Shown here piece by piece: positions 25,903 through 40,989 of a stretch of 52,260 nt of DNA; positions within the stretch are counted from its first letter, which is position 1, and each line of letters opens with the position of its first letter. The notes beneath the pieces were generated by a model, which was not told where the DNA came from, did no database searches, and saw only the letters and a list, made by a program, of their open reading frames with translations. The stretch is from an uncultured Actinomycetes bacterium (GTDB taxonomy: Bacteria > Actinomycetota > Actinomycetes > S36-B12), in NCBI GenBank assembly GCA_903832025.1, contig CAIKZY010000076.1:1-52260 (forward strand). Reading direction: 5' to 3'. A program made the position numbers and the translations under genes.

Positions 25903-26322
25903 ATGTCGACATTTCGACCGAGGCAGATGGGCATCGTTCACGACGTGATTGAGGGTCAAGTGCTGATCATTCGCAGTGACTCTGGCGCCTACTACTCGAT
26001 GGAGGGAACGGGCACTGTGGTGTGGGAAGGCATCCTGCGCGGTGAGTCAGTCGATGCGATCACAGCCAGCGCCGTGCAGCGATACCCGGATACCCCTGAA
26101 CTGGCAGCGGACATCCGGTACCTGTTCGCTGATCTGCAGCGCGAGCAGCTCATCGAAGAGACAACGAGCGCATCCAGCCCCGGCACGACAACGAGCACCC
26201 CGTGGCCGGATACCTGGACAGCTCCGGCACTGGCGATCTTCAATGACATGAAGGATCTGCTGCTGTTTGATCCGATTCACGAAGTTGGTCCCGAAGGCTG
26301 GCCATACGCATCACATGAGTGA
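25903..26322 (+). CDS. PqqD-family peptide chaperone with HPr-rel-A-type C-terminal tail
   Basis: VIEGQVLIIRSDSGAYYSMEGTGTVVWEGILRGESVDAI PqqD core; tail TAPALAIFNDMKDLLLFDPIHEVGPEGWP. Confidence 0.75.
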   Translation: MSTFRPRQMGIVHDVIEGQVLIIRSDSGAYYSMEGTGTVVWEGILRGESVDAITASAVQRYPDTPELAADIRYLFADLQREQLIEETTSASSPGTTTSTPWPDTWTAPALAIFNDMKDLLLFDPIHEVGPEGWPYASHE

Positions 26323-27316
26323 AGCCGATGCCGCGATCGCCTCGGTCTTGCAGCGCGCCCTGGCCGTCCAAGGCCTGACGCACGCCCAGGCTGCCTTCGG
26401 GCCGATGCAGCTTGAGCTCGGCTGCGATGACGATGAATTCGTGCGGTCCGTACAGCGCGCAGCGATCGCCGAGCAGTCGGCGCACGCGTGGCCGACCCTG
26501 CGGGTGCTGATGCTGACCGCTGCATCACTGCCGTTGGAGCACCTCCCGACGCCACTGCGGCCCACATTCAGGCATGCGGCGGTGCGCGTGATCACCACAC
26601 CCCGGTTTAGCTGTCTGGTCAATCAACACCTCCTCTGGGTCGCCGATCGTCAATCGGCGACGGTCCTGAGGTGGTCCCTGTCCTGCGAAGCAGTTCCGGA
26701 CTGGGAGTCGACCCGTCCATTGCGGTATGCGCTGAACTGGTGGGCCGCCGAGCATGGATCAGCCCTGCTTCATGCTGGCGTGGTCGCGTATCAGGGGAAA
26801 TCAGTCATCTTGACGGGAAAGGGAGGGACGGGGAAGTCCACAACCGTCTGCGCCTGTTTGGACTCACCGCTGTCGGTACTGGCCGATGATTACTGCCTCG
26901 TCCAACCGGCAACTGCTGATTCCGATGCCACCGCGCATGCCCTCTTCAGGGTCGGGCACGTTGATGCCCAGACAATCGCCTTACTGCCCTCACTGCGCAG
27001 CAGGGTCATCGTGGACGATCCGCAGTCAAAGTCGCTCGTGCGACTGATCGAGCAGCCACCGCGACCGGCGAGTATTGCCGCATTCGCCTCGATTACCCGT
27101 GCTCCCGGCGCGGACACGCTCATGCGTCCGACGTCCGCCAGTGCAGTGCTCCAGCAGGCAGCTCCCAGCACCATCGCACAAAGCTATGCCGGGCAGGAGC
27201 ACATCTGGCGAGTTCTGACGCAGATGGTCCAATCCAGCATCTGCGTCGATCTGCAGGTCGGCTCACTGTCGGACGTCCCGCAAGCGTTGCTGCAGACACT
27301 GCGGGACCAACCATGA
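26315..27316 (+). CDS. HPr-kinase-like protein (HprK-related kinase A type)
   Basis: HAGVVAYQGKSVILTGKGGTGKSTTVCAC Walker A; start ATG 26315 overlaps the PqqD stop. Confidence 0.75.
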   Translation: MSEADAAIASVLQRALAVQGLTHAQAAFGPMQLELGCDDDEFVRSVQRAAIAEQSAHAWPTLRVLMLTAASLPLEHLPTPLRPTFRHAAVRVITTPRFSCLVNQHLLWVADRQSATVLRWSLSCEAVPDWESTRPLRYALNWWAAEHGSALLHAGVVAYQGKSVILTGKGGTGKSTTVCACLDSPLSVLADDYCLVQPATADSDATAHALFRVGHVDAQTIALLPSLRSRVIVDDPQSKSLVRLIEQPPRPASIAAFASITRAPGADTLMRPTSASAVLQQAAPSTIAQSYAGQEHIWRVLTQMVQSSICVDLQVGSLSDVPQALLQTLRDQP

Positions 27317-28029
27317 TCACCCGTCCGGTGACCGTGGTCATCCCTGCGCACAATGCCGCGGGAACGATTGCCGCAACGTTGCGTTCACTGGGCAATCCCG
27401 CGCGCATCATTGTCGTCAATGATCGCTCACAGGACAGCACCGTGGAACAGATCACTGCATGCGGCATCGATGTTGACGTGCTCCACAGCACGCACCCAGG
27501 ACCTGGTGCTGCCAGGAACCACGGAGCGGTGCACGTCAGGACGCCATACATTGCGTTTTGCGATGCTGATGATCAATGGGTCCCGGGACGACTTGATGCG
27601 GACCTGGACATCCTGAGCCGCCGACCCGACATCGAGATTCTCCTGGGCAGCACCCGGTATGAAGCAACCGATGCAGCCTTGCTGGCCGGCCACGTGTTCC
27701 CCGACGACACGCAGAGCCAGGTGATCGCCCACTTCGGAGCGGCAACGATGCGCACGGCTGCCTTTCACCGGGTGGGTCCGATTCGCGAGGACAAAGCCAA
27801 CTTTGAGGATCTGGAGTGGTTCCTGCGTGCTCGCGATCTCGGTGTCGGCCTGGTAGCCCACCGCCGCATCGTTCAGCGTCGACTCATGCATCCATCAAGC
27901 ACCAGTCATGTGCATCCTGGCCGGCCCACGGACATGCTGGCGGTGCTGGCTGAATCGGTACGCCGCCGTGCAGACTCCGGTGTGGAGGTCCTGTCGTTGC
28001 AGGACAGTATTGATATGAATCTGCCATGA
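27313..28029 (+). CDS. Glycosyltransferase family 2
   Basis: PVTVVIPAHNAAGTIAATLRSL; FCDADDQWVPGRL; 4-bp overlap with both neighbours. Confidence 0.85.
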   Translation: MITRPVTVVIPAHNAAGTIAATLRSLGNPARIIVVNDRSQDSTVEQITACGIDVDVLHSTHPGPGAARNHGAVHVRTPYIAFCDADDQWVPGRLDADLDILSRRPDIEILLGSTRYEATDAALLAGHVFPDDTQSQVIAHFGAATMRTAAFHRVGPIREDKANFEDLEWFLRARDLGVGLVAHRRIVQRRLMHPSSTSHVHPGRPTDMLAVLAESVRRRADSGVEVLSLQDSIDMNLP

Positions 28030-29813
28030 AGGTGCTGTGGTGGACTGGGGAGTACCCTCCCGATGTCGGGGGCATCGCGACCGTTGCGCAACAGACCCTG
28101 GCGGCTCTGGCAGCACGTGGGATCAATGCCCATGCATTGATCGCCGCACGAGGTGACGAAGACGGCGTGGACGGCGCGATACCGCTGACGCGCCGGCCGA
28201 TTGCCGAATCGCTTATCGACAGCGACGCTGCCGCGTTCGCGCAGTGGATTGCCTTTGTTCGGAATTTCAAGGATCACCAGCGGGCCGATGTCTACCATGT
28301 GCACCCGGCTGACCCAAGCGTGCTCGCGCACCTGATGACCTTGTCGGCGCATCCTGCCCCGACCATCGTGACCTTTCACCAGCAGATGTTCTCCGTGCTT
28401 CCCTCCGCCGCACCCCAGTCGTTGATCGGACGACTGATCGCCCAGGCGCAGATTGTCACTGCGGTCTCGGCGGCCAGTGCGAACCAGGCGGTTGCGACAT
28501 TGCCGGAGATCGCCGACAAATTGATCGTGATTCCCAACGGACTGCAGGTGTCCGGACCGGTTCTTCCCCTGCCCAGTGCACCGCGGATCGTGGCCGTCGG
28601 TCGTCTTGTGCCCGTGAAGGGTTTCCATGACCTGATCCGGGCAATGGTCACCGTTGTTGAGCAGGTTCCCGACGCTCACCTGCACATCGTTGGTGATGGA
28701 CCTGAGCGTGGCGCGCTGGAGCAGATGTGCGAGCGGCTCGGCCTGACGACATCGATCACGTTCACCGGTGCGGTTGGGCAGGACCAGGTCCGCGCCCTGA
28801 TGGACGCCAGCACGATCGTGGCCATGCCGTCGACGGTTGAGGGCATGCCCATGGTGGCGCTGGAAGCATCTGAACGAGGCCGAGCCATCGTCGGTTCCAA
28901 TATCGGCGGCATTAACGAAGTCGTGCTGGATGGTGTTTCCGGTGTGCTCATTGACCGCAATGACGATTTTATTGACACCTTCGCCAGGATGCTGACCGAC
29001 CTCTTGACAGATCTGCAGCGGGCCGAGGCACTCGGTCTTGCCGCACGGGCACGCCTGGAAGACCGGCAGTCCGTGGATCGAGTGGCAGCCCTCTACGAGA
29101 TCGCGTATCGCGCGGTATGCAGCGATCGACCTGCGCCCCTGGTCAGCGTGATCATGCCCGCGCACAATGGCGAAGCCTTCATTCGACAAGCGGTTGAGTC
29201 GGTGCTCGAACAAGGTCTTGCAGATCTGGAACTCATCATCGTCGATGACGGCTCCACGGATGCAACGCTTCGGGTGCTTGCGCACGTGAGCGACCCACGC
29301 CTGATCGTCCTACCGCAGCCGAATCGGGGAAGCGGCAGTGCCCGAAATGCCGGCATCGCTATCGCCCGCGGTCAGTACATCGCCCACATTGATCACGACG
29401 ATCTGTGGCCCCATGATCGCCTGGCTTGCCTGTGGCAGGTGCTGGACGCGGACCCCGAAATGGATGCCTGCTTTGGGACGGCGATTGAATTCGCTGATCC
29501 GTCGATGCGTGGGAACTACGCGGTGCGCAGCGAGCCGAGGACCACGCGGTTCCCGACCACCGGACTGATTCGGGCTGCATTTCATCGCTCGGTCGGTCCA
29601 TTTCACAGCGAGCCCTTCGGGGACCAAGTGGATTGGTCAATACGGGCCCTGGATGCGGGTATGCGCTACGCCGAGCTCGCGAATATCGTCCTGAGACGGC
29701 GCATCCATGATTCGAACATGTCGCATCGAAATCCCCTCGACAAGGACATGAACAAGCTGCGGCTCCTCAAGCGCTCGCTGGATCAGCGCAAGGGCGACGA
29801 GGACCGGGCCTGA
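28026..29813 (+). CDS. Two-domain glycosyltransferase (GT4 fused to GT2)
   Basis: N-terminal GT4 (GEYPPDVGGIATVAQ..; VAMPSTVEGMPMVALEASERGRAIVGSNIGGINEVV) then GT2 (PLVSVIMPAHNGEAFIRQAVESVLEQGLADLELIIVDDGSTD). Confidence 0.85.
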   Translation: MKVLWWTGEYPPDVGGIATVAQQTLAALAARGINAHALIAARGDEDGVDGAIPLTRRPIAESLIDSDAAAFAQWIAFVRNFKDHQRADVYHVHPADPSVLAHLMTLSAHPAPTIVTFHQQMFSVLPSAAPQSLIGRLIAQAQIVTAVSAASANQAVATLPEIADKLIVIPNGLQVSGPVLPLPSAPRIVAVGRLVPVKGFHDLIRAMVTVVEQVPDAHLHIVGDGPERGALEQMCERLGLTTSITFTGAVGQDQVRALMDASTIVAMPSTVEGMPMVALEASERGRAIVGSNIGGINEVVLDGVSGVLIDRNDDFIDTFARMLTDLLTDLQRAEALGLAARARLEDRQSVDRVAALYEIAYRAVCSDRPAPLVSVIMPAHNGEAFIRQAVESVLEQGLADLELIIVDDGSTDATLRVLAHVSDPRLIVLPQPNRGSGSARNAGIAIARGQYIAHIDHDDLWPHDRLACLWQVLDADPEMDACFGTAIEFADPSMRGNYAVRSEPRTTRFPTTGLIRAAFHRSVGPFHSEPFGDQVDWSIRALDAGMRYAELANIVLRRRIHDSNMSHRNPLDKDMNKLRLLKRSLDQRKGDEDRA

Positions 29814-30814
29814 AGGAATCGGATCCCGCTGCTCCACGGGGAAACTCGCGGAACAGCTGACCACGGCGGGCCTTGGCGGGCCTGCCGGATGTCATGGCGC
29901 CGCCGGGCAGCTGCCTGCATCCGCTGCCACGCCCCACCGGCAGCGATCTCGTGCAGGACGACCGCATCCATGGGCGCTGCGGACAGTTGCTCAATCACAG
30001 ACCGGGGAATATCGGCACCAACCTGACTCATGAGCCAGTTCAGTCCTTCAGCCACAAGTGGCCCGTACCCGCTGTCCACGGAATGTGCAAGGACGGACTG
30101 CCAAAATTCCGATGTGCGTGAGCCGTCCTGGAGCAACTGCATGGCATCAAGTGGCCACGTGATCGCTGCACTGGCGGGCGCCGTGATTCCCTCAACGATG
30201 GCAAGGGTCAGCAGACACCCATCCGATAGGGAATCCGCGACCGTGGATTCCATGGCTCCGCGTGCAAAGTTGGGCGGTGTTCGACGCAGCTGCGGGAACT
30301 CCCTGCCCCAGGTCAGCACCAGTGAGCGGCCATTGTCGTCAAGAAAGGCGCTGGTCATGCTGGCACGGGGACGATGGCGCATCGCCCATCCGTGAGCCGG
30401 CAGCACCTCCAAGGATCGCGTCCAGTCAGCGGCGCCAATCCACAGGTCGACCGTGGTGACCGGACGGTACGTGGACATGCTGGGGTCCAGCAGCAGGGCG
30501 CTGCCGCGGATCGGTCGGGCGGTGATGTCGTATCGCGTCAGCGCATCACGGGCCTGATGCAGGTGCAGCAGGGTCTGCTGATTGACCACCCAGGCTCGTT
30601 TCCTGAGTCCAAGGAGTAGCGGTGCGTCGGTGCCAAAGTCCAGGTACTGATCTCGGTGTGCCAGGTGATGGAGGATGGCGAATTCTCGGGATGCAGATTG
30701 CTGCAGATCATGTTCGGCGCGCCATGCGTCCCACGCCTGGACAGCGGCGTCTTCATCGGCCAAGGCTGCCCTCAGGAGCAGAGTGTCTGAGTCCGTCAGC
30801 GAGAGAATGCGCAC
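29783..30814 (-). CDS. Nucleotidyltransferase-like protein (NTP_transf_5-like), paralogue 1
   Basis: RPIRGSALLLDPSMSTYRPVTTVDLWIGAADWTRSLEVLPAHGW; probable GTG start 30814. Confidence 0.6.
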   Translation of the reverse strand: MRILSLTDSDTLLLRAALADEDAAVQAWDAWRAEHDLQQSASREFAILHHLAHRDQYLDFGTDAPLLLGLRKRAWVVNQQTLLHLHQARDALTRYDITARPIRGSALLLDPSMSTYRPVTTVDLWIGAADWTRSLEVLPAHGWAMRHRPRASMTSAFLDDNGRSLVLTWGREFPQLRRTPPNFARGAMESTVADSLSDGCLLTLAIVEGITAPASAAITWPLDAMQLLQDGSRTSEFWQSVLAHSVDSGYGPLVAEGLNWLMSQVGADIPRSVIEQLSAAPMDAVVLHEIAAGGAWQRMQAAARRRHDIRQARQGPPWSAVPRVSPWSSGIRFLQARSSSPLR

Positions 30815-31010
30815 CGAGCCGCTCCTGTTCCGTGCCGTGATCGGCAGCGCGGCACCATTGCGTGTCGATGGCTCGCAGATGACCGCGTACGCGTGGAGGA
30901 ATCCTGGCACAGGTGCTCTTGGTATGGATCCACCGTGTCCTGACAGCCGCCACCGGTCGGCCGCACCGTAACGCCAAATGCTCGGCAAGCAACTGCATCA
31001 GCACACTCCG

Positions 31011-32744
31011 ATGACACAGGTGGCACACTGGTGGATCATGGTGGGCCAGACGTTGACCTTGCGGATCACTCCATCAGCGGCGGACTGCGTGGAGAATGTG
31101 TCCTCATCGAGGAACTGGACCCTTGACGATGGCCGCGTGCTGGCCGTCATCGCCGGTCCGCATGCCCTGGACCACACCGCAGTGGTGCAGTGGATGGATG
31201 CAGGCTGCCCGGATCCGGCACCGGTTCGCCAGGGATTCGCCGCGATCCTGGTCGACCCACGATCCGGTTCCACCCAGATGGCCAGCGGCGCACGCAGTGA
31301 GGTCACCCTGCATTGGGCCCTGGAGGGGCAAAGCCTGCTCGTGTCATCGCACCTGCGGGCGTTGTTGGAAGCGCAGGCCACACCGACCTTTGATGAGGAG
31401 GGGATGGCGCGCTACCTGTGGCGTGCCAGTGACCCTTCAGAGACGATGTATGCAGGGGTCACGCGGCTGCCTGCCGGCCATCACGCACGGTGGCGCCCGG
31501 GAACGCGGCCGCACCTCATGCGCTGGTTCTGGCCACAGCGCACGGACGTTTCCACTGCTGCGAACTTTCCAGGTCAGCTCGGTGACGTCATTGCCGATGC
31601 GGTGCGACAGTCACTGCCGTCAGGCGGCACGGTTGCCTCACATCTGTCCGGCGGACTGGACTCCACGACCGTGACTGCCCTGGCTGCCGCGCAGGTTCGC
31701 GGTCATGGCGGTACGATCCAGGCGCTGAGCCACCTGGTCACCCCGGAACGCTGGCCAGCGTGGCTGAGTCCTGATGCCGATGATTCCCCGTTCGTCGAGG
31801 CGTTTGTCCGAGGCACACCGGGTGTGCAACTCCATCGATTCGATACCCCGCGCCGGAGCATCCTGTCGGCAACGCGAGCGGTGTTTGAGGCAACGGCGTA
31901 CCCCATGCTCAATCCCATAAATGCCCCCTGGCTGCTGGACATCGATGATTGGGTGCGGGCCAACGACGTTGCCCTGGTCCTGACGGGCGTGCATGGCAGC
32001 TTGGGGTTCTCGATCACCCGAGGCCATCAGTACCGACGAGCGATCAGATCAGGCCAGTTTGGGCTCCTGAAACGCGACATGGTTGCCCGACACAGGCTGG
32101 GTGACCGATGGCGAAATATTGGCGCCACGACGGTGTATGAGTTCGCCCCGCGGGCCACTACGACGGTGTTGCGGGTAATCGGCCGCCATGAACCGCGTGC
32201 CAGCACAAACCCGTTGATCATTGCGCCCAAACCCACGGACATGGTCGAGCCAGGAGTCCACAAGGCGGATCGGGAATGGTGGAGCCAGTCCGTCCTTCTG
32301 GATCAACCGGCCCAGTCGCTGATGCAGTTCCCGGTGACAGGGGCGTGGGCCAGTGATCCGCTGGGTGACAGCGAGGTGATTCGCACCCTGTTCTCCGCGC
32401 CAGCATCGGCCTGGCTCGGTGACGGCATGGACCGCGCGTTAGCCCGACGAACGATGCAGGGAGTGGTCGTCGATGAGGTGCGCTTGCGTGCCGGACGAGG
32501 TCTGCAGGGCGCGGACTTCGGTGAGGCGGCGCGCAGCCAGGATCGCGAATTTCAGGAAGCGCTCGAAGAGGTCTCTGCTTCCCCGCTGGCCAACCGATTC
32601 ATCGATGTGCCCAGGCTCGCGTCCACGATGCGGCCGCATACTCCGTACGCCGGCCGATCAGCGCTGGACTGGCAACTGCTTGAAGGACGCATGCTCGGCT
32701 TTGGCCTGTATCTGGCCTGGATCGAAGGATTCCTGCGCCGATGA
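31011..32744 (+). CDS. Asparagine-synthetase-like lasso cyclase (B/C protein)
   Basis: SHLSGGLDSTTVTALAAAQ PP-loop; N-terminal domain without an MC catalytic Cys; next to PqqD. Confidence 0.85.
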   Translation: MTQVAHWWIMVGQTLTLRITPSAADCVENVSSSRNWTLDDGRVLAVIAGPHALDHTAVVQWMDAGCPDPAPVRQGFAAILVDPRSGSTQMASGARSEVTLHWALEGQSLLVSSHLRALLEAQATPTFDEEGMARYLWRASDPSETMYAGVTRLPAGHHARWRPGTRPHLMRWFWPQRTDVSTAANFPGQLGDVIADAVRQSLPSGGTVASHLSGGLDSTTVTALAAAQVRGHGGTIQALSHLVTPERWPAWLSPDADDSPFVEAFVRGTPGVQLHRFDTPRRSILSATRAVFEATAYPMLNPINAPWLLDIDDWVRANDVALVLTGVHGSLGFSITRGHQYRRAIRSGQFGLLKRDMVARHRLGDRWRNIGATTVYEFAPRATTTVLRVIGRHEPRASTNPLIIAPKPTDMVEPGVHKADREWWSQSVLLDQPAQSLMQFPVTGAWASDPLGDSEVIRTLFSAPASAWLGDGMDRALARRTMQGVVVDEVRLRAGRGLQGADFGEAARSQDREFQEALEEVSASPLANRFIDVPRLASTMRPHTPYAGRSALDWQLLEGRMLGFGLYLAWIEGFLRR

Positions 32745-32813: not shown

Positions 32814-33071
32814 ATGAAGGTGATTAGAAGGGTTGGCGTGGTCGATTCCCATATTGATGGGCGCCTGGTCGCGTTGAATTCCGATCTTGAGTTCGTGGAG
32901 CTCGACGTCATGGGGGAGTTCATCTGGTCGCAGACCGCTACTCCCACCGATACAGATCGCATCGTCCAGGCGGTGACCGCCCAATTTGAGGTCGATGTTG
33001 CTACCTGCCGCGAGGATGTCATCCGCTTTCTCCATGAGCTCCACAGTGCCCACTTGATTGACCTCAGCTAG
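32814..33071 (+). CDS. PqqD/RRE protein (lasso B1)
   Basis: RLVALNSDLEFVELDVMGEFIWSQTATPTDTDRIVQAVTAQFEVDVATCREDVIRFLHELHSAHLID. Confidence 0.85.
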   Translation: MKVIRRVGVVDSHIDGRLVALNSDLEFVELDVMGEFIWSQTATPTDTDRIVQAVTAQFEVDVATCREDVIRFLHELHSAHLIDLS

Positions 33072-33174: not shown

Positions 33175-34164
33175 GTGACGTCATTGGGCGAGTGTGATTC
33201 CAACCTGGCGTGCCTGCATGGTATCCACCTTCGCGCTGACTTCGCATTGCGTGGATGGCCGGCAGCAGACCTCGCGAATCCGCAGGACTGCTGGACGCTA
33301 GAAGTCCATCGCGGGCAGATCGTGAATGCCGACCCGATTCAACGCGATCTGGGTCTGGTGACCGGCAACCTGCGCCACGAGGTCATCAGCGGGCGCGAAC
33401 ACGTAGCGTTGACGATGCGCAGTTTGCAGGACTTCACGGAAACAAGTATCAACGTTGATCTCTCGCGGCGGCAGATCAGCGTGCAGTGTGATCTGTGGTT
33501 TCCCGGAAGTGAAGCCCTTCTGCTCTACCTCCTGCACACCCGCGTCATCCCCGCAATCGCCGCGCTCACCCGGAAGTCCGCGGTACTGCATGCAACAGCC
33601 ACGCACGTGCCTGAAGGCGCGATCGTGATCTGCGGTCGGTCAGGTGTGGGAAAGTCGACGCTCGCCGCCGGGCTGATCAGTTCAGGTGCGCTGCTCTTGG
33701 GCGATGAGCCGATCGTGATCGATCGGGGTGTCCACCGCAGCGTGGCCCAGCCAAGCGTGCGATCCCTTCGCCTTGAGCAGGCGACCTTCGCTGCAGAGCT
33801 TCTTGCCAATCAGGGATGGACCAGCCATGCCGGACACGACAAGTCGGTCTGGTCCCCGCCGATTGCGGCGGGCCACGCCGAAGTGAGCCCGGTTGCCGCA
33901 GTCCTGGTTCTCGGCGAACGCATTCAGTCAGGTTCGACGCCGGATTTCGTGCGCCTTTCCCCGGTTGCGGCGACGCAGGCCCTCATGGATCAATCGCACC
34001 TTTCCGTCGACCTCATTGATGCGCAGGCCCGTCGATTCACCGCGGCGGCGGCCATTGTGGAGTCCACTCCGGTGTTCGAAGTGCACATGCCCGATGACGC
34101 GGACTCGATCCACTCGGCCGTGAGGCTGCTTCGCGCGGGCATTTCCGAAGCCGGCGTGCGATGA
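33175..34164 (+). CDS. HPr-kinase-like lasso peptide kinase
   Basis: KSAVLHATATHVPEGAIVICGRSGVGKSTLAAGLISSGALLLGDEPIVID. Confidence 0.8.
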   Translation: MTSLGECDSNLACLHGIHLRADFALRGWPAADLANPQDCWTLEVHRGQIVNADPIQRDLGLVTGNLRHEVISGREHVALTMRSLQDFTETSINVDLSRRQISVQCDLWFPGSEALLLYLLHTRVIPAIAALTRKSAVLHATATHVPEGAIVICGRSGVGKSTLAAGLISSGALLLGDEPIVIDRGVHRSVAQPSVRSLRLEQATFAAELLANQGWTSHAGHDKSVWSPPIAAGHAEVSPVAAVLVLGERIQSGSTPDFVRLSPVAATQALMDQSHLSVDLIDAQARRFTAAAAIVESTPVFEVHMPDDADSIHSAVRLLRAGISEAGVR

Positions 34165-35333
34165 CTGGGGAGCACCATCCACAACCGAAGGTCGTCGCGG
34201 ATCCGGCCACGCAGCAGCTGCTGACTGAGGCCATCCGATATGTCATGTCAATCGAGCATGGCTCCCGACCGGCAGCATCCAATCTGTCGCAGATCGATCG
34301 CGCAGCGTTCCTTGCTGCGGTTCGTCGTCAGCGCATGGAGATATTCTTGAGCCCCCATCTGGAAGATCTGAGGCTTCCTGATGAGGTCTGTGAGCAGATC
34401 AGCGCGTGGGCTGGTCAGCTCAAGATGCGCGCCATGTCCTGCGCAGTGGCAACGCGCGAGGTCTGGGCCGCGCTGACTGCATGTGGGATTGATGCGCTGA
34501 TCATCAAGGGAATTCTACTCAGCCTGCAGACGACTGGCACCGTGGCCGGCAGAGGCCCCGGTGACGTCGACCTCTGGGTTCGGGGAGCCGACGTCGGTGC
34601 TGCTGCCGAAGAACTGCACCTGCTTGGCTATCGCCGAAGTGCCTGGGCACCCACATCGGATTTCACCACCTGGCGCGGTCGCTACACGCAATGGGCTGCC
34701 TTTGAGTTGCCAATGGACCGAAACGGCCTACCCCTTGACCTCCATTGGCAACTCGCGGGGGCACGCCATGGGCTACCGACGTTTGACGAAGCCTGGAAGC
34801 AGCGTGCCGTGGTCGATATTGGCGGCACGCCGGTGAGCACGTTATCCGCAGAGCATGCGTTCGTGCACAGCTGTTCACACGCTCATCGTGATGGCTGGGG
34901 CTGGCTGCGTTCATTGATTGACATCGATCGGCTTTCGCGCCTGGTGACGTTCGACCCAGCAACTGCCCGGTCATCACGAGCCGTCCGACTGTCGACTGCG
35001 ATGGCCTATGACGTTACGGGAAGCGCCTCGCTTGGTCCGTGGATGCAGTCGGACAGCCCTGCGGTCAAGCGCGCTCGGCGAATCGCGCACACCAAGCAAT
35101 CAGATCTCGGATGGTCTGTTGCCGGTGCCTGGACCGTCCAGTCGACGTGGGACTGGCTGCACCAGTCATTGCAGCTGACCGGCAATGCGGGCGATATCTG
35201 CCGGGTACTGTCATCGTTCGCGCTGCCGCCTGAGTTTTTCGTCGAGCCGTCCTCAGACGGGCCTGTGCCCGTGCCTCGGGCGCTGTTGGCCCGCTTTCGG
35301 AAAATGGCCCGCAGAGTCAGTCACCAGGAGTGA
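34161..35333 (+). CDS. Nucleotidyltransferase-like protein, paralogue 2
   Basis: GIDALIIKGILLSLQTTGTVAGRGPGDVDLWVRGADVGAAAEELHLLGYRRS; 4-bp overlap with the kinase. Confidence 0.75.
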   Translation: MTGEHHPQPKVVADPATQQLLTEAIRYVMSIEHGSRPAASNLSQIDRAAFLAAVRRQRMEIFLSPHLEDLRLPDEVCEQISAWAGQLKMRAMSCAVATREVWAALTACGIDALIIKGILLSLQTTGTVAGRGPGDVDLWVRGADVGAAAEELHLLGYRRSAWAPTSDFTTWRGRYTQWAAFELPMDRNGLPLDLHWQLAGARHGLPTFDEAWKQRAVVDIGGTPVSTLSAEHAFVHSCSHAHRDGWGWLRSLIDIDRLSRLVTFDPATARSSRAVRLSTAMAYDVTGSASLGPWMQSDSPAVKRARRIAHTKQSDLGWSVAGAWTVQSTWDWLHQSLQLTGNAGDICRVLSSFALPPEFFVEPSSDGPVPVPRALLARFRKMARRVSHQE

Positions 35334-35862: not shown

Positions 35863-37623
35863 GTGGTCGGCGAAAACGAAGCAGGGATATTCGCGTCCCT
35901 GCGATCAGATGCGCTGTCACTGCTGCGCACGGCCTTTCGGCTCTCTCCGCGAAGAAGCGTCCTGCAACTGCTGTTTTTGAGCATCAGTGGATTTACCGGG
36001 AGTGTCGGCCTGCTCCTGCTCATTCCCATCGTTGACACCATCGCGCATCCAGGTGCTCGACTCACGCTTCCGCTGGTGGGGAGTGTGAGTCTGGGAGCCT
36101 TCCCGTTGTGGAGCATGCTCCTGGCCTTCGTCTGCCTCATTGGCGTGCAGGCAGCCGTTCAACGTCTTGGCCTGATTAATGCCATGCGCATCCAGCAGGA
36201 AATTGTCGATTTCCTTCGGCAGCAGGCGTTCAATGCTGTGCTGCACGCACGCTGGGAATTCATCCTGTCCAAGCGGCGAAGCGATTTCGTCGAAGTGATC
36301 ACCGTCGGCGCGATGCGATCAGGCATTGCGTTTCAGCAGCTGACGCAAGCTGCTGTGGCACTCGTGTTCGGCTTGGCAACCGCAGCCGTGGCGATCCTGG
36401 TCTCGCCGGTGATCGCCGGACTGTCAATTCTCGGGGTGGTCCTGGCTGGCTGGATTCAGCTCAGAAGCGCTCGGCCCGCATATGCCCTCGGCCGGCAATA
36501 CGGGGAACGCTCACGTCATCTGCAAGCGGTGGTCACCGACTCGATGGACTCACTGCGACTGATTCGAGCCCACGACGCCTCGCGGCTGTGGGCCGAGCGC
36601 ATGTCCGAGGCATTTACTCTGGCCCGCGATGTTCAGGTCTCGACAGTCAAGAGGACATCGGCGACTGCCGCGTGGACCTCGGTGCTCCTGGCCGGGGCAG
36701 CCGCGCTGCTGATCCTGATTGCGGTGCAACTGTCCGTACCGCCGACACTGATTATCGTGATCGTGCTGCTCGTGGCACGCATGGCACGACAGATGCAGCT
36801 GCTGGCCACGTTGTTCGTGCAACTTGCCGGATTGCTCCCTGCGGTGGGGGACCTTGCCGATCTCACCCGACAGGCTCGGGACTGCGCGGAGGTGCCGGCT
36901 GATGGACACGGTGACTCACTGGGATCCGTGGTTTCAGCCGATCCTCTCGTGGAACTTCGTCAGGTCACGTACTGCTATCCCGGGTCCCATGCCGGGGTGC
37001 GTGAGGTCAACATGATGTTGCGCAGAGGAGCAATCACCGCGCTCAGCGGTCGCACCGGTTCAGGAAAGTCCACGACGGCCGACCTGGTTCTTGGCCTCTT
37101 GACTCCGCAATCCGGCGAGGTCCTCGTGTCCGGCGAGGTGTTGACCTCGGCTGATCTTGCAGCGTGGCGGCGCCATGTTGCGTACGTACCGCAGGAGACC
37201 GTGCTGATTCCCGGGACACTCCGCGAGAACCTGACGTGGTCGGCGCCCACTGCTGTGTCGGACGAGCAATGCTGGAAGGCCCTGGACCGCTCCGCTGCCA
37301 CATTCGCCCATCAGCTGCCCGAGGGCCTGGACACCCTGCTCGGTGATCGCGGCGTGCGTCTGTCGGGCGGGGAACGCCAACGTGTGTCCATTGCTCGAGC
37401 ACTCCTGCGCGAGCCACAGCTTCTGGTCCTAGACGAGGCGACGTCGGCATTGGATGACGACACGGAGGAGGAGATTCTCCACCTGTTGTCGCAACTCATT
37501 CCTCAGGTGACCGTCTTGGTGATTGCCCATCGACGCTCGACCCTGGAGGCGGCCGACACCGTGGTCCACCTCAGCCATGGTCGTGAAGATGGGAATTCGC
37601 GTCGGCCCATGCGTCGGCCATAG
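35863..37623 (+). CDS. ABC transporter, fused permease-ATPase (RiPP exporter)
   Basis: GRTGSGKSTTADLVLGLL; LSGGERQRVSIARALLREPQLLVLDEATSALD; N-terminal TMD. Confidence 0.92.
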   Translation: MVGENEAGIFASLRSDALSLLRTAFRLSPRRSVLQLLFLSISGFTGSVGLLLLIPIVDTIAHPGARLTLPLVGSVSLGAFPLWSMLLAFVCLIGVQAAVQRLGLINAMRIQQEIVDFLRQQAFNAVLHARWEFILSKRRSDFVEVITVGAMRSGIAFQQLTQAAVALVFGLATAAVAILVSPVIAGLSILGVVLAGWIQLRSARPAYALGRQYGERSRHLQAVVTDSMDSLRLIRAHDASRLWAERMSEAFTLARDVQVSTVKRTSATAAWTSVLLAGAAALLILIAVQLSVPPTLIIVIVLLVARMARQMQLLATLFVQLAGLLPAVGDLADLTRQARDCAEVPADGHGDSLGSVVSADPLVELRQVTYCYPGSHAGVREVNMMLRRGAITALSGRTGSGKSTTADLVLGLLTPQSGEVLVSGEVLTSADLAAWRRHVAYVPQETVLIPGTLRENLTWSAPTAVSDEQCWKALDRSAATFAHQLPEGLDTLLGDRGVRLSGGERQRVSIARALLREPQLLVLDEATSALDDDTEEEILHLLSQLIPQVTVLVIAHRRSTLEAADTVVHLSHGREDGNSRRPMRRP

Positions 37624-37631
37624 ACTTAGGC

Positions 37632-37767
37632 ATGGAGTCCACGACACGCCAGCCCTATCAAGCCCCCCCTACCGCCCCGAATTGTGGTCGCCCTTCAGTC
37701 GGCCCAGGGGAACACCGGTCAGCCCGGTAGCGACGGCTACCTCAATTACGGCTCCGCACCGTTCTAA
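37632..37767 (+). pseudogene. Fourth lasso-like precursor, split by a +1 frameshift in a CCCCCCC tract
   Basis: Frame 0: MESTTRQPYQAP; after removing one C, frame 1 reads LPPRIVVALQSAQGNTGQPGSDGYLNYGSAPF*, matching the leader and core layout of the intact precursors. Confidence 0.7.
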
Positions 37768-37902: not shown

Positions 37903-38034
37903 ATGTCGGACAACGAGCATCGCAAGCCATACGCAGCGCCGCAAACGCCGCGCGTGGTCTCGACGCTGGCACTGTCATCCGCGACATTCACGTATGCAGG
38001 GACAGACTCGGGCTTCTACGCCTCAGTCACCTGA
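37903..38034 (+). CDS. Lasso-like RiPP precursor 1 (43 aa)
   Basis: MSDNEHRKPYAAPQTPRVVSTLALSSATFTYAGTDSGFYASVT*; absent from the ORF track because of length. Confidence 0.85.
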   Translation: MSDNEHRKPYAAPQTPRVVSTLALSSATFTYAGTDSGFYASVT

Positions 38035-38209
38035 GCGATCCCAGCATGCTGAAGGACCGATACGCAGATCTCCCCGGTTGGCGTGGATCGGAAACTGAGC
38101 ACTGCAGTATGGGGAGCCGTTGGCTCACAGTCCGGTGGGGCTCGCGACCGTTCCGATCGAGACCGTTCCGCCGAGACAGACATTCCTCGAAGGCTTCGGT
38201 ATAGGGTGA

Positions 38210-38232
38210 TGACCTGAGCATCAGTCAGGTCA
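38210..38232. promoter_or_regulatory. Inverted repeat upstream of precursor 2
   Basis: tgacctga-N7-tcaggtca, perfect 8-bp arms, 27 bp before the ATG at 38259. Confidence 0.5.
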
Positions 38233-38258
38233 GCTCGGATTGGTATTAGAGGAGTGTC

Positions 38259-38396
38259 ATGTCAGAAAACGTAGATCGCAAGCCGTACGTAGCACCTGAG
38301 GCGCCGCGCGTTGTCTCGACACTCGCGATGTCAGCTTCGATGTACTTTGGCGGGTCTGGAGCTGACAACGCCTTGTACTCTTCCACACCTGTGTAA
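38259..38396 (+). CDS. Lasso-like RiPP precursor 2 (45 aa)
   Basis: MSENVDRKPYVAPEAPRVVSTLAMSASMYFGGSGADNALYSSTPV*; RBS-like gaggag upstream. Confidence 0.88.
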   Translation: MSENVDRKPYVAPEAPRVVSTLAMSASMYFGGSGADNALYSSTPV

Positions 38397-38612
38397 CCAC
38401 CTCGCCGAAGTCAGCAGGATTCCGAACTTCTGGGCGGACGGGTTCGGCACGTGAAGATTGCAGCGTGGGGAATCTCGATTCCTGGTCCTGCCGATGTCGT
38501 AATCGTTCAGCGGGAGACCGGTACCGCAAGTCCGACATCCAGCTTGGGCAGCAGTCGGGGAATGAATTGGATGCCAGAATGGTGTCCAATCGCATCGGTA
38601 GGGAGGGATTTC

Positions 38613-38747
38613 ATGTCCGACATCGCAGATCGCAGGCCCTATGTAGCGCCGGCCGCTCCACAGGTTGTCGCGACGATCGTGGGAGCGGCGGTGACCTACT
38701 ACGGTGGGTCTGGAGCCGATAGTGGTTTCTACGCTTCATACAACTGA
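38613..38747 (+). CDS. Lasso-like RiPP precursor 3 (44 aa)
   Basis: MSDIADRRPYVAPAAPQVVATIVGAAVTYYGGSGADSGFYASYN*; RBS-like gggaggga; listed ORF 38451..38747 overextends upstream. Confidence 0.88.
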   Translation: MSDIADRRPYVAPAAPQVVATIVGAAVTYYGGSGADSGFYASYN

Positions 38748-38879: not shown

Positions 38880-39857
38880 GTGGACGTGAAGCACTCCTTG
38901 CCCTCAACACCGTTGGTGAGCGTCATCATTCCTGTCCAGGATCGAATTGATTTCCTGGGTGCTGCACTGGCAAGTGTCCGAAATCAAACCGTCCATGACC
39001 TAGAAGTGATCATCGTCGATGCCGGGTCGACCCAGGATGTCGGCGGGTTCGTCAGGCATATTCAACGGACCGACTCCCGGTTTCGCTTCGTGCGAAGCGA
39101 TGCCAGGCTGAGCGCGGCAGAGGCCAGAAACCTGGGTTTGCAGCAAGTGCGGGCGCCGTACGTCGCTCATCACGACTCAGACGACATCATGCAGCCGATG
39201 CGGTTGCACCAGCAATTGTCTGCTTTCGACGCACCAGATCTTGAGTGTGTGGCTGGATGCATGCTGGGGATGAGTGCAGCAGGACTGCGTCTTTCGACCA
39301 TGGCCTCGCAAGGGACGACGGATGCTGCAACGGCGATGACTGATCTAGAAGTCAGATGGCGCTTTCCAATTTTGATGCCTTCGATGACCTCAACGCTCAT
39401 GATGCGGACGCAAACCCTGCGGGATATGGGCGGATTTTCTACGAACTACACCACCTGCGATGACTATGTCACCATGGCTACTCTGCTTGACCGGGGAAGA
39501 GTCGTGCGCATTGGCGAATATGTCACAAAGTACCGACAGCACGACCGTCAAATTTCCACGTCGAGGAATATCGAGCAACAAGTGCAGCTGTCGCTGCTGC
39601 GACAGCGCATCATCGCCTCGCGAGTCAGCGCCAAGGTCGCACTCGGTCCGGTCATGACCCTCACCCTGCCCAACCTGCCCGAATCAACGACGCACCGATA
39701 TCACCGTGAGGCGCTGTCCCTGCTCGACGCGCTGTTAGAGAGCTTTCTGGACGAGCATCAGCCACGTGAACAGGATCAAAAGTGGATCCTGCACGACTAT
39801 CGACAGCGAAGGCACGCCTTGATGCAGCAAGCCGGCCTTCGTGATGACACCGCATGA
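38880..39857 (+). CDS. Glycosyltransferase family 2
   Basis: PLVSVIIPVQDRIDFLGAALASVRNQTVHDLEVIIVDAGST; HHDSDDIMQPMRL. Confidence 0.82.
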   Translation: MDVKHSLPSTPLVSVIIPVQDRIDFLGAALASVRNQTVHDLEVIIVDAGSTQDVGGFVRHIQRTDSRFRFVRSDARLSAAEARNLGLQQVRAPYVAHHDSDDIMQPMRLHQQLSAFDAPDLECVAGCMLGMSAAGLRLSTMASQGTTDAATAMTDLEVRWRFPILMPSMTSTLMMRTQTLRDMGGFSTNYTTCDDYVTMATLLDRGRVVRIGEYVTKYRQHDRQISTSRNIEQQVQLSLLRQRIIASRVSAKVALGPVMTLTLPNLPESTTHRYHREALSLLDALLESFLDEHQPREQDQKWILHDYRQRRHALMQQAGLRDDTA

Positions 39858-39888: not shown

Positions 39889-40989
39889 CTAGATGACAGG
39901 GACCTGCCAGAAGACGGCGGACCAGTCGATTACCTGGAGCTCTGCTGTGATGTGGTGCTTTGCGCGGAACTCCTCCACCGCCGCACGGCAGGTATCAATG
40001 CAGTAGTCGTCGATGATGACGAAACCACCTGGAGTGACTTTCGCGTAGAGCGACTCCAGCACTTCAGTGGTGGACTGGTGGAGATCGCCGTCCAGACGCA
40101 GCAGGGCGATCTGATGGATTGGCGCCGTCGGCATCGTGTCGCTAAACCAGCCTTGCAGGAATTCAACCCGATCGTCCAGGAGCCCGAAGGCCGCAAAGTT
40201 CTCACGCACGTCGTCAAGCGAGACGGCAATTTTCCCTGCGGATTTGGCCCAGAACGCGTCATCGGGATATCGCTCAATGTCGGGGACCGGTAGCCCTTCG
40301 AATGAATCGCACACCCACACGCGTCGCTGCGGGTCTTCGTGTGCCTCCAGTACGGCCTTCATCATGATGGTCGCCCCGCCCCGCCAGACTCCTGTCTCGA
40401 CGAAGTCGCCGGGAATCTGCTCATTCATGACGTATTCAGCGAGCGCGCGGACATTTCGCAGTCGTGGAAAGCCAATCATCGTGAATCCCGGCATGCTTCG
40501 AAGGCCATGGTTGACCGCGTAGCCTGCGAGCAAGGAATCCACGTCGGGGCCTTGCGGGCCATTCTCGGGCGCCTTGTACAACAGGCCCAGCAGCGCGCGC
40601 TCGGTCAGGTCCAGGTAGCGGGCACGGAGGTCCCGAGAAGCCTGAGCGGACGTAGGCACCGGCTGGATGTCACCCTCAACGAGTCCCAGGGATCGAAGAT
40701 CCTCAGTAAAGCGTCGCACATCGGACTGAAGTTGTTCAGCTTCCGCGTCAAACTCCTCGAGCAGGCGACTGACGGTCTTGTCAACCGAGGATGTCTCGCG
40801 CAAGGCGGTCCACATCGAGCGACCAACCTCGTCAAGCTCGATGAGCTCCAAGGTCACCATGTTCACCACGACGCACGCTTGATCATCAAACTCCTCGTGA
40901 GCATGTGAGATCACCCGCACTTCGTCCCAGGGCGTTGGGGAAGATTCGTTGGTGCTCATCACATGGACCCTCTCATTGAGTGCAGTCAT
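39889..40989 (-). CDS. PqqD(RRE)-TylF/MycF-type O-methyltransferase fusion
   Basis: N-terminus QACVVVNMVTLELIELDEVGRSMWTALRETSSVDKTVSRLLEEFDAEAEQLQSDVRRFTEDLRSLGLVE (PqqD-like); C-terminus GDFVETGVWRGGATIMMKAVL...VWVCDSFEGLPVPD...LLRLDGDLHQSTTEVLESLYAKVTPGGFVIIDDYCID (TylF). Confidence 0.88.
   Translation of the reverse strand: MTALNERVHVMSTNESSPTPWDEVRVISHAHEEFDDQACVVVNMVTLELIELDEVGRSMWTALRETSSVDKTVSRLLEEFDAEAEQLQSDVRRFTEDLRSLGLVEGDIQPVPTSAQASRDLRARYLDLTERALLGLLYKAPENGPQGPDVDSLLAGYAVNHGLRSMPGFTMIGFPRLRNVRALAEYVMNEQIPGDFVETGVWRGGATIMMKAVLEAHEDPQRRVWVCDSFEGLPVPDIERYPDDAFWAKSAGKIAVSLDDVRENFAAFGLLDDRVEFLQGWFSDTMPTAPIHQIALLRLDGDLHQSTTEVLESLYAKVTPGGFVIIDDYCIDTCRAAVEEFRAKHHITAELQVIDWSAVFWQVPVI

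Follow-up and report, generated by a model that had tools for sequence, protein, structure and literature searches.

Lasso peptides known so far have rings of 7-9 residues, and the kinases known so far to act on them modify a C-terminal Ser. An O-methyltransferase gene within the lasso cluster is found for lassomycin and for StspM, an enzyme that reportedly methylates the peptide C-terminus and is said to have been modelled on mitomycin-7-O-methyltransferase. The described systems closest to the locus analysed here are those of paeninodin (Pade), ThcoA, SyanA, and BsfA (Bradymonas), in which a YxxP leader is accompanied by a discrete B1 RRE, a B2 peptidase, an AsnB-type C protein, and an HprK-like kinase. 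For the BsfA precursor, which has been studied by experiment, YxxPxL lies at positions -17 to -12, Gly1 is joined to Asp8, and a Ser other than the C-terminal one can be used; Thr at -2 is the rule among lasso precursors, with Ile/Val exceptions, and predicted precursors with Ile, Val, or Ala at -2 have been cited too (PMC10368454). Kinase action on lasso precursors precedes folding, and in pseudomycoidin (Psm) PsmK phosphorylates the C-terminal Ser, whereupon one or two hexoses are attached to the phospho-Ser by PsmN, which is homologous to nucleotidyltransferases (PMC8498205, PMC9266682).

The stretch of DNA analysed here, called the window in the following, comprises 52,260 nucleotides from an uncultured actinobacterium, the genome of which (2.2 Mb in 187 contigs) is 98% complete with 0.4% contamination. 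The window shares all components listed above for the phosphorylated lasso peptides, and it resembles BsfA in the Tyr predicted at -17 and in a residue other than Thr at -2, which is Ile in BsfA. In contrast to these systems, Ser or Ala occupies the predicted -2 position, YxxP is followed by PxxPxV instead of PxL, and the intact precursors have neither Gly1 nor a C-terminal Ser. The window also differs in its actinobacterial host, in its additional sugar enzymes, and in having more than one precursor, the copies being paralogous. With pseudomycoidin the window has in common a kinase and a nucleotidyltransferase-family protein (PsmK/PsmN) beside lasso genes, but the precursor sequence is unrelated, and a family 2 glycosyltransferase (GT2) and an RRE-fused sugar O-methyltransferase are added.

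Gene content of the locus

The following genes were recognized in the window (positions, strand, and assignment).

26267..27316, plus strand: P-loop protein, weakly HprK-like (weak match), possible second kinase
27313..28029, plus strand: family 2 glycosyltransferase
28026..29813, plus strand: GT4-GT2 fusion glycosyltransferase
29783..30988, minus strand: divergent NTP_transf_5-like protein (E 0.0016, below cut-off)
30978..32744, plus strand: AsnB-type macrolactam synthetase (C protein); PF00733 56.5 bits (cut-off 21), ATP-binding SGGLDS intact
32814..33071, plus strand: discrete RRE/PqqD-like B1; PF05402 54.6 bits, matches the lasso RRE TbiB1 (PDB set)
33175..34164, plus strand: HprK-related kinase, predicted peptide Ser kinase; motifs H...GKST...GDE, PF07475 27.8 bits, below cut-off
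34161..35333, plus strand: NTP_transf_5, predicted phosphopeptide glycosyl/nucleotidyl transferase of the PsmN type; PF14907 111.8 bits
35317..35856, minus strand: B2 leader peptidase (Transglut_core3); PF13471 61.8 bits (cut-off 26)
35863..37623, plus strand: ABC exporter, predicted D protein; family assigned by Pfam/NCBIfam
37632..37766, plus strand: degenerate fourth precursor, frame-broken, directly 3' of the ABC transporter gene
37903..38034, plus strand: precursor A1 of 43 aa, with 26 residues from Tyr to Asp; the core is predicted as ATFTYAGTD-SGFYASVT or a version shortened by one residue
38259..38396, plus strand: precursor A2 of 45 aa, with 27 residues from Tyr to Asp
38613..38747, plus strand: precursor A3 of 44 aa, with 27 residues from Tyr to Asp; ATG 38613 with its own ribosome-binding site
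38880..39857, plus strand: GT2; conserved, adjoins AsnB in relatives
39889..40959, minus strand: RRE (PqqD) fused to a sugar O-methyltransferase of the TylF/MycF/NovP type (RRE-TylF); Pfam/NCBIfam and profile matches

The best NCBIfam match of the AsnB-type protein was the lasso cyclase model NF033535, far below its cut-off (71 versus 525 bits). The B2 gene on the minus strand lies between the NTP_transf_5 and ABC transporter genes and is convergent with the former, an arrangement common to the loci L009 and L067. An earlier note on this DNA does not contain the fourth precursor copy or the genes for the HprK-related kinase, NTP_transf_5, GT2, and RRE-TylF. The upstream group at 26267-30988 (HprK-like, GT2, GT4-GT2, NTP_transf_5-like) was not seen in the relatives described below.

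Judged by their sequences, A1-A3 appear to be lasso-type precursors, an assignment that is well supported at the gene level. The earlier note had suggested a divergent lasso subclass. This is partly borne out: the lasso-type assignment is supported by the adjacent AsnB, B1 RRE, and B2, by the YxxP leader and the invariant Asp, and by an arrangement kept in two other genomes, and the chemistry is predicted. An explanation that we consider probable is that A1-A3 encode lasso-type macrolactam precursors that are phosphorylated, glycosylated, sugar-methylated, closed on Asp, and exported. Counting against it are the absence of Gly1 and Thr(-2) from the intact copies and the distance of AsnB from the cut-offs of curated lasso cyclases. 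The longer Tyr-to-Asp spacing of four copies, the missing C-terminal Ser, and the lack of an exporter gene beside the precursors of the relatives also weigh against it.

Leader, core, and predicted ring

A1-A3 are present and intact, with sequences exactly as in the earlier note. Purine-rich Shine-Dalgarno sequences are located a few bases 5' of each ATG (GAGGGAG for A1, GAGGAG for A2, GGGAGGG for A3), and A3 is likely to start at ATG 38613 and not at GTG 38451 of a longer open reading frame. Precursor relatives beside AsnB and B2 genes, which the earlier note proposed to search for by the leader motif, were found in the actinobacterial MAG LacPavin_0818_WC45 (G087) and in a second genome (G088) as arrays of three to five with the same gene set. 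Together, these genomes contain 11 further intact precursors (three at L008, three at L009, and five at L010) and one fragment at a contig end. The relatives read M[ST]EREPYSKPAEPVLVGSVEMSEVTYSGSGSDLSIYSS.. and are surrounded by genes for AsnB, GT2, RRE-TylF, HprK-like kinase, B1, NTP_transf_5, and a B2 on the minus strand. L010 and L008 break off within the cluster, so that the gene set is not fully visible at each locus. No ABC exporter adjoins the precursors in the relatives.

The three copies of the window and the 11 relatives were aligned, counting positions from the leader Tyr as 1. A1-A3 have R[KR]PYxAPxxPxVV in common, and the RRE-type YxxP motif noticed before is invariant in all 14 copies, as are the individual leader residues Y1, P4, P7, and V10. 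Position 12 is Ser in 11 copies and Thr in three, followed by Val, Leu, or Ile; position 16, the predicted -2 residue, is Ser in 12 and Ala in two; position 19 is always polar or Met and position 20 always Tyr or Phe. Then follow Ser/Thr/Gly-rich residues, an invariant Gly two residues before Asp, and the Asp itself. This Asp (residue 35, 36, and 36 in A1, A2, and A3), singled out already from the three window copies, is conserved in 14 of 14, and the window copies have no other acidic residue behind the leader. The Asp occupies position 26 in ten copies and 27 in four (A2, A3, L009a, and L009c). Behind it the consensus x-x-[IFL]-[YH]-x leads to a Ser at Asp+6 that is present in all 14 copies, two to four residues from the end; a terminal Ser, the expected kinase target, is absent.

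The fourth copy begins with ATG 37632 and the leader MESTTRQPYQAP, reading ...RQPYQAP in the frame of the ATG. The frame is broken in a C-rich stretch at 37660-37680, and PRIVVALQSAQGNTGQPGSDGYLNYGSAPF continues in the next frame to a stop at about 37766. This second frame reads PRIVVALQSAQ-GNTGQPGSD-GYLNYGSAPF and has no start codon between its upstream stop and PRIVV. The break may be genuine, the copy then being a pseudogene, or it may stem from an error in the assembly. With Tyr at -17, Gly is found at position 18 and Asp becomes core residue 9, a canonical-looking Gly1/Asp9 pair.

Intact copies have indeed no Gly1 and no invariant Thr at -2, as the earlier note had remarked. In view of the documented Ile/Val exceptions, Thr(-2) is taken as typical and not as defining (PMC10368454). 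If Tyr is at -17 as in BsfA, the core starts at position 18. The spacing in BsfA and the Gly at position 18 of the fourth copy agree, and therefore Ser or Ala would stand at -2 instead of Thr. A core start at position 18 and a 9-residue ring are thus predicted. By these two observations, the cleavage site and the ring size of 7-9, both called unclear in the earlier note, are narrowed; they are given as predictions, since leader and Asp are one residue further apart in four of the 14 copies. With a start at 18, Asp is core residue 9 in ten copies and 10 in four; with a start at 19, it is residue 8 and 9, respectively. A fixed start combined with a 9-residue ring cannot accommodate the four copies with a spacing of 27 residues, so that a fixed cut would give rings of 9 and 10 or of 8 and 9. 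For the longer copies, a cut shifted by one residue is ranked first, followed by a start shifted by one residue in all cores, with rings of 8 and 9, and a 10-residue ring comes last. Because spacings of 26 and 27 residues coexist in one array, the locus is a natural experiment both on the residues that a lasso B2 peptidase tolerates at -2 and on the limit of ring size.

A later cut within the same lasso system is possible but less probable. The core would then start either at position 19, for rings of 8 and 9 residues, or at residue 20, an aromatic one, for rings of 7 and 8. Such a cut would keep every copy inside the known range with a leader of fixed length, and the regularity of residues 19 and 20 would be in accord with it. 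The residue at -2 would then be Glu, Ala, Ser, or Gln for a start at 19 and Val, Asn, Ser, Ala, or Lys for a start at 20. However, the fourth copy would begin at Asn or Thr and not at its Gly, Tyr would move from -17 to -18 or -19, and position 16, Ser in most copies, would lose its role as -2.

It is improbable that the products are glycosylated and phosphorylated RiPPs without a lasso ring, with an AsnB that forms another amide or is inactive and with sugar enzymes dominating. The many glycosyltransferases, the sugar O-methyltransferase, and an AsnB distant from curated lasso cyclases would suit such a product, but AsnB, B1, and B2 occur together in the window and in G088, and across two contig ends in G087, and a single Asp is invariant. 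Still less is to be said for a B2 cut after position 13, by which AsnB would make an unprecedented and probably unthreaded ring of 13-14 residues. In this case position 12, then -2, would be Ser or Thr in every intact copy, yet leader binding explains the conservation of positions 11-13 equally well, the ring would be far beyond 7-9 residues, Tyr would be at -13, and the broken fourth copy has Ala at that position.

Sugar-tailoring enzymes and proposed pathway

NovP and MycF transfer methyl groups to the hydroxyls of sugars in antibiotics. To our knowledge, the NovP, MycF, and TylF enzymes described so far lack an RRE, and their substrates are sugars of antibiotics that are small molecules. 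The RRE-TylF fusion is present in four clusters, in the window and at L008, L009, and L010, where identity is 49-50%. A profile of the four members matched NovP (5e-86) and MycF with its C-terminal part (E 1e-78 to 1e-86), and the LRLDGD and IIDDY motifs shared by the catalytic domains of NovP, MycF, and TylF are kept. Unlike these enzymes, the fusion carries an RRE: residues 12-91 matched TbiB1 (9e-9), a lasso RRE of solved structure, and a 'lasso peptide biosynthesis PqqD family chaperone', as did the discrete B1 RRE. In an AlphaFold model of the fusion, the N-terminus has the order strand-strand-strand-helix-helix-helix, though the models of RRE-TylF and AsnB are of low confidence (pLDDT 42 and 45). 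StspM differs from the window enzyme, which belongs to the NovP/MycF family acting on sugar hydroxyls and has its own RRE.

As NovP and MycF are sugar O-methyltransferases, the fusion suggests sugar O-methylation on a leader-bound lasso precursor, and the gene content suggests phosphoglycosylated, sugar-O-methylated lasso peptides as products of the cluster. RRE-TylF is probably the most novel enzyme encoded there. RRE fusions to glycosyltransferases are mentioned in two RRE-mining papers, the main texts of which do not contain the term TylF (PMC7470986, PMC12710340). In the literature searched, no report of sugar methylation of lasso peptides and none joining 'lasso peptide' with 'macrocin O-methyltransferase' was found, which is no proof that it is unreported. 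TylF relatives occurred in 24 plasmid records, none of which matched at least 80% of the fusion; the plasmid matches listed covered at most the last few residues of the RRE part.

For cyclisation on Asp, ring size, threading, kinase site, sugar addition and methylation, the order of steps, and export, we infer the following pathway. The discrete B1 RRE would grip the leader at YxxPxxPxV, and the HprK-like kinase would phosphorylate a core Ser with the leader attached, most likely the invariant Ser of the tail at Asp+6. One or more sugars would be added by NTP_transf_5 and GT2, and RRE-TylF, binding the leader by its own RRE, would O-methylate the sugar. B2 would then cut after position 17, with Ser or Ala at -2 for Thr, or, where the copies are longer, after the next residue. 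AsnB would activate the invariant Asp and close a ring, most likely of nine residues, on the new N-terminus, leaving a tail of 8-10 residues of the FYAS or IYSS type. The ABC transporter would export the product, and the paralogous cores would give several products per cluster. That an O-methylated sugar is installed on phosphoserine by the RRE-bearing methyltransferase while the precursor is leader-bound, and that A2, A3, and two relatives in addition form a 10-residue ring, larger than the known 7-9, is an unlikely combination.

Conservation and distribution of the precursor genes

A1-A3 are 49-53% identical to one another. In tblastn searches they matched each other with E values of 2e-9 to 2e-13 and precursors of independent genomes with 1e-5 to 1e-7; a profile of the 14 precursors gave 1e-17 to 1e-25. 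Within the window, synonymous differences (pS) were 0.59-0.67 and non-synonymous ones (pN) 0.25-0.33 for the pairs (A1/A2: 0.59 and 0.25). In the L010 array the values were 0.44-0.84 and 0.04-0.21, with 0.46 and 0.04 for L10a/L10c, and one pair in G087 showed no differences over the compared codons. With pS well above pN within and between arrays, the precursors are under purifying selection. Although A1-A3 are small and match no Pfam or NCBIfam model, chance open reading frames can be dismissed, because these genes match one another and precursors in independent genomes and are under purifying selection. Lack of conservation of the small frames at homologous loci, named in the earlier note as an observation that would speak against its lasso reading, was looked for, and the frames were found to be conserved.

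The description of A1-A3 as unannotated also held for their relatives, none of which is matched by Pfam or NCBIfam models, and comparison of the precursors with PDB gave no match. They represent a precursor family from uncultivated actinobacteria that, from its sequences, appears to be a new and rare lasso-type family. Its leaders end in a non-canonical way, each cluster encodes several paralogous cores, and the accompanying set of sugar-tailoring enzymes is unusual.

The precursor family is rare and patchy. In a sample of 398 genomes of the phylum, the profile of the 14 precursors matched only the window genome, and no precursor relatives were detected in viral contigs. AsnB relatives with 43-45% identity are present in G087 and G088, which belong to the same order, and with 35-36% in G116, but none was found in the other genomes of the order, of which 168 were covered in all, or in a sample of 396 genomes of the class. 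Two genes flanking the cluster in the window are absent from two congeners too. Among the matches listed in an AsnB alignment scan of genome contigs, most were distant asparagine synthases and only L012, from the same MAG as G087, was informative. G088 harbors two copies of the cluster, L010 and L009, with different precursor arrays of five and three genes, respectively. The short contig 56 of G116 (L011), on which no precursor was recognizable, carries two tandem AsnB genes together with NTP_transf_5, an ABC transporter, and a B2 gene on the minus strand.
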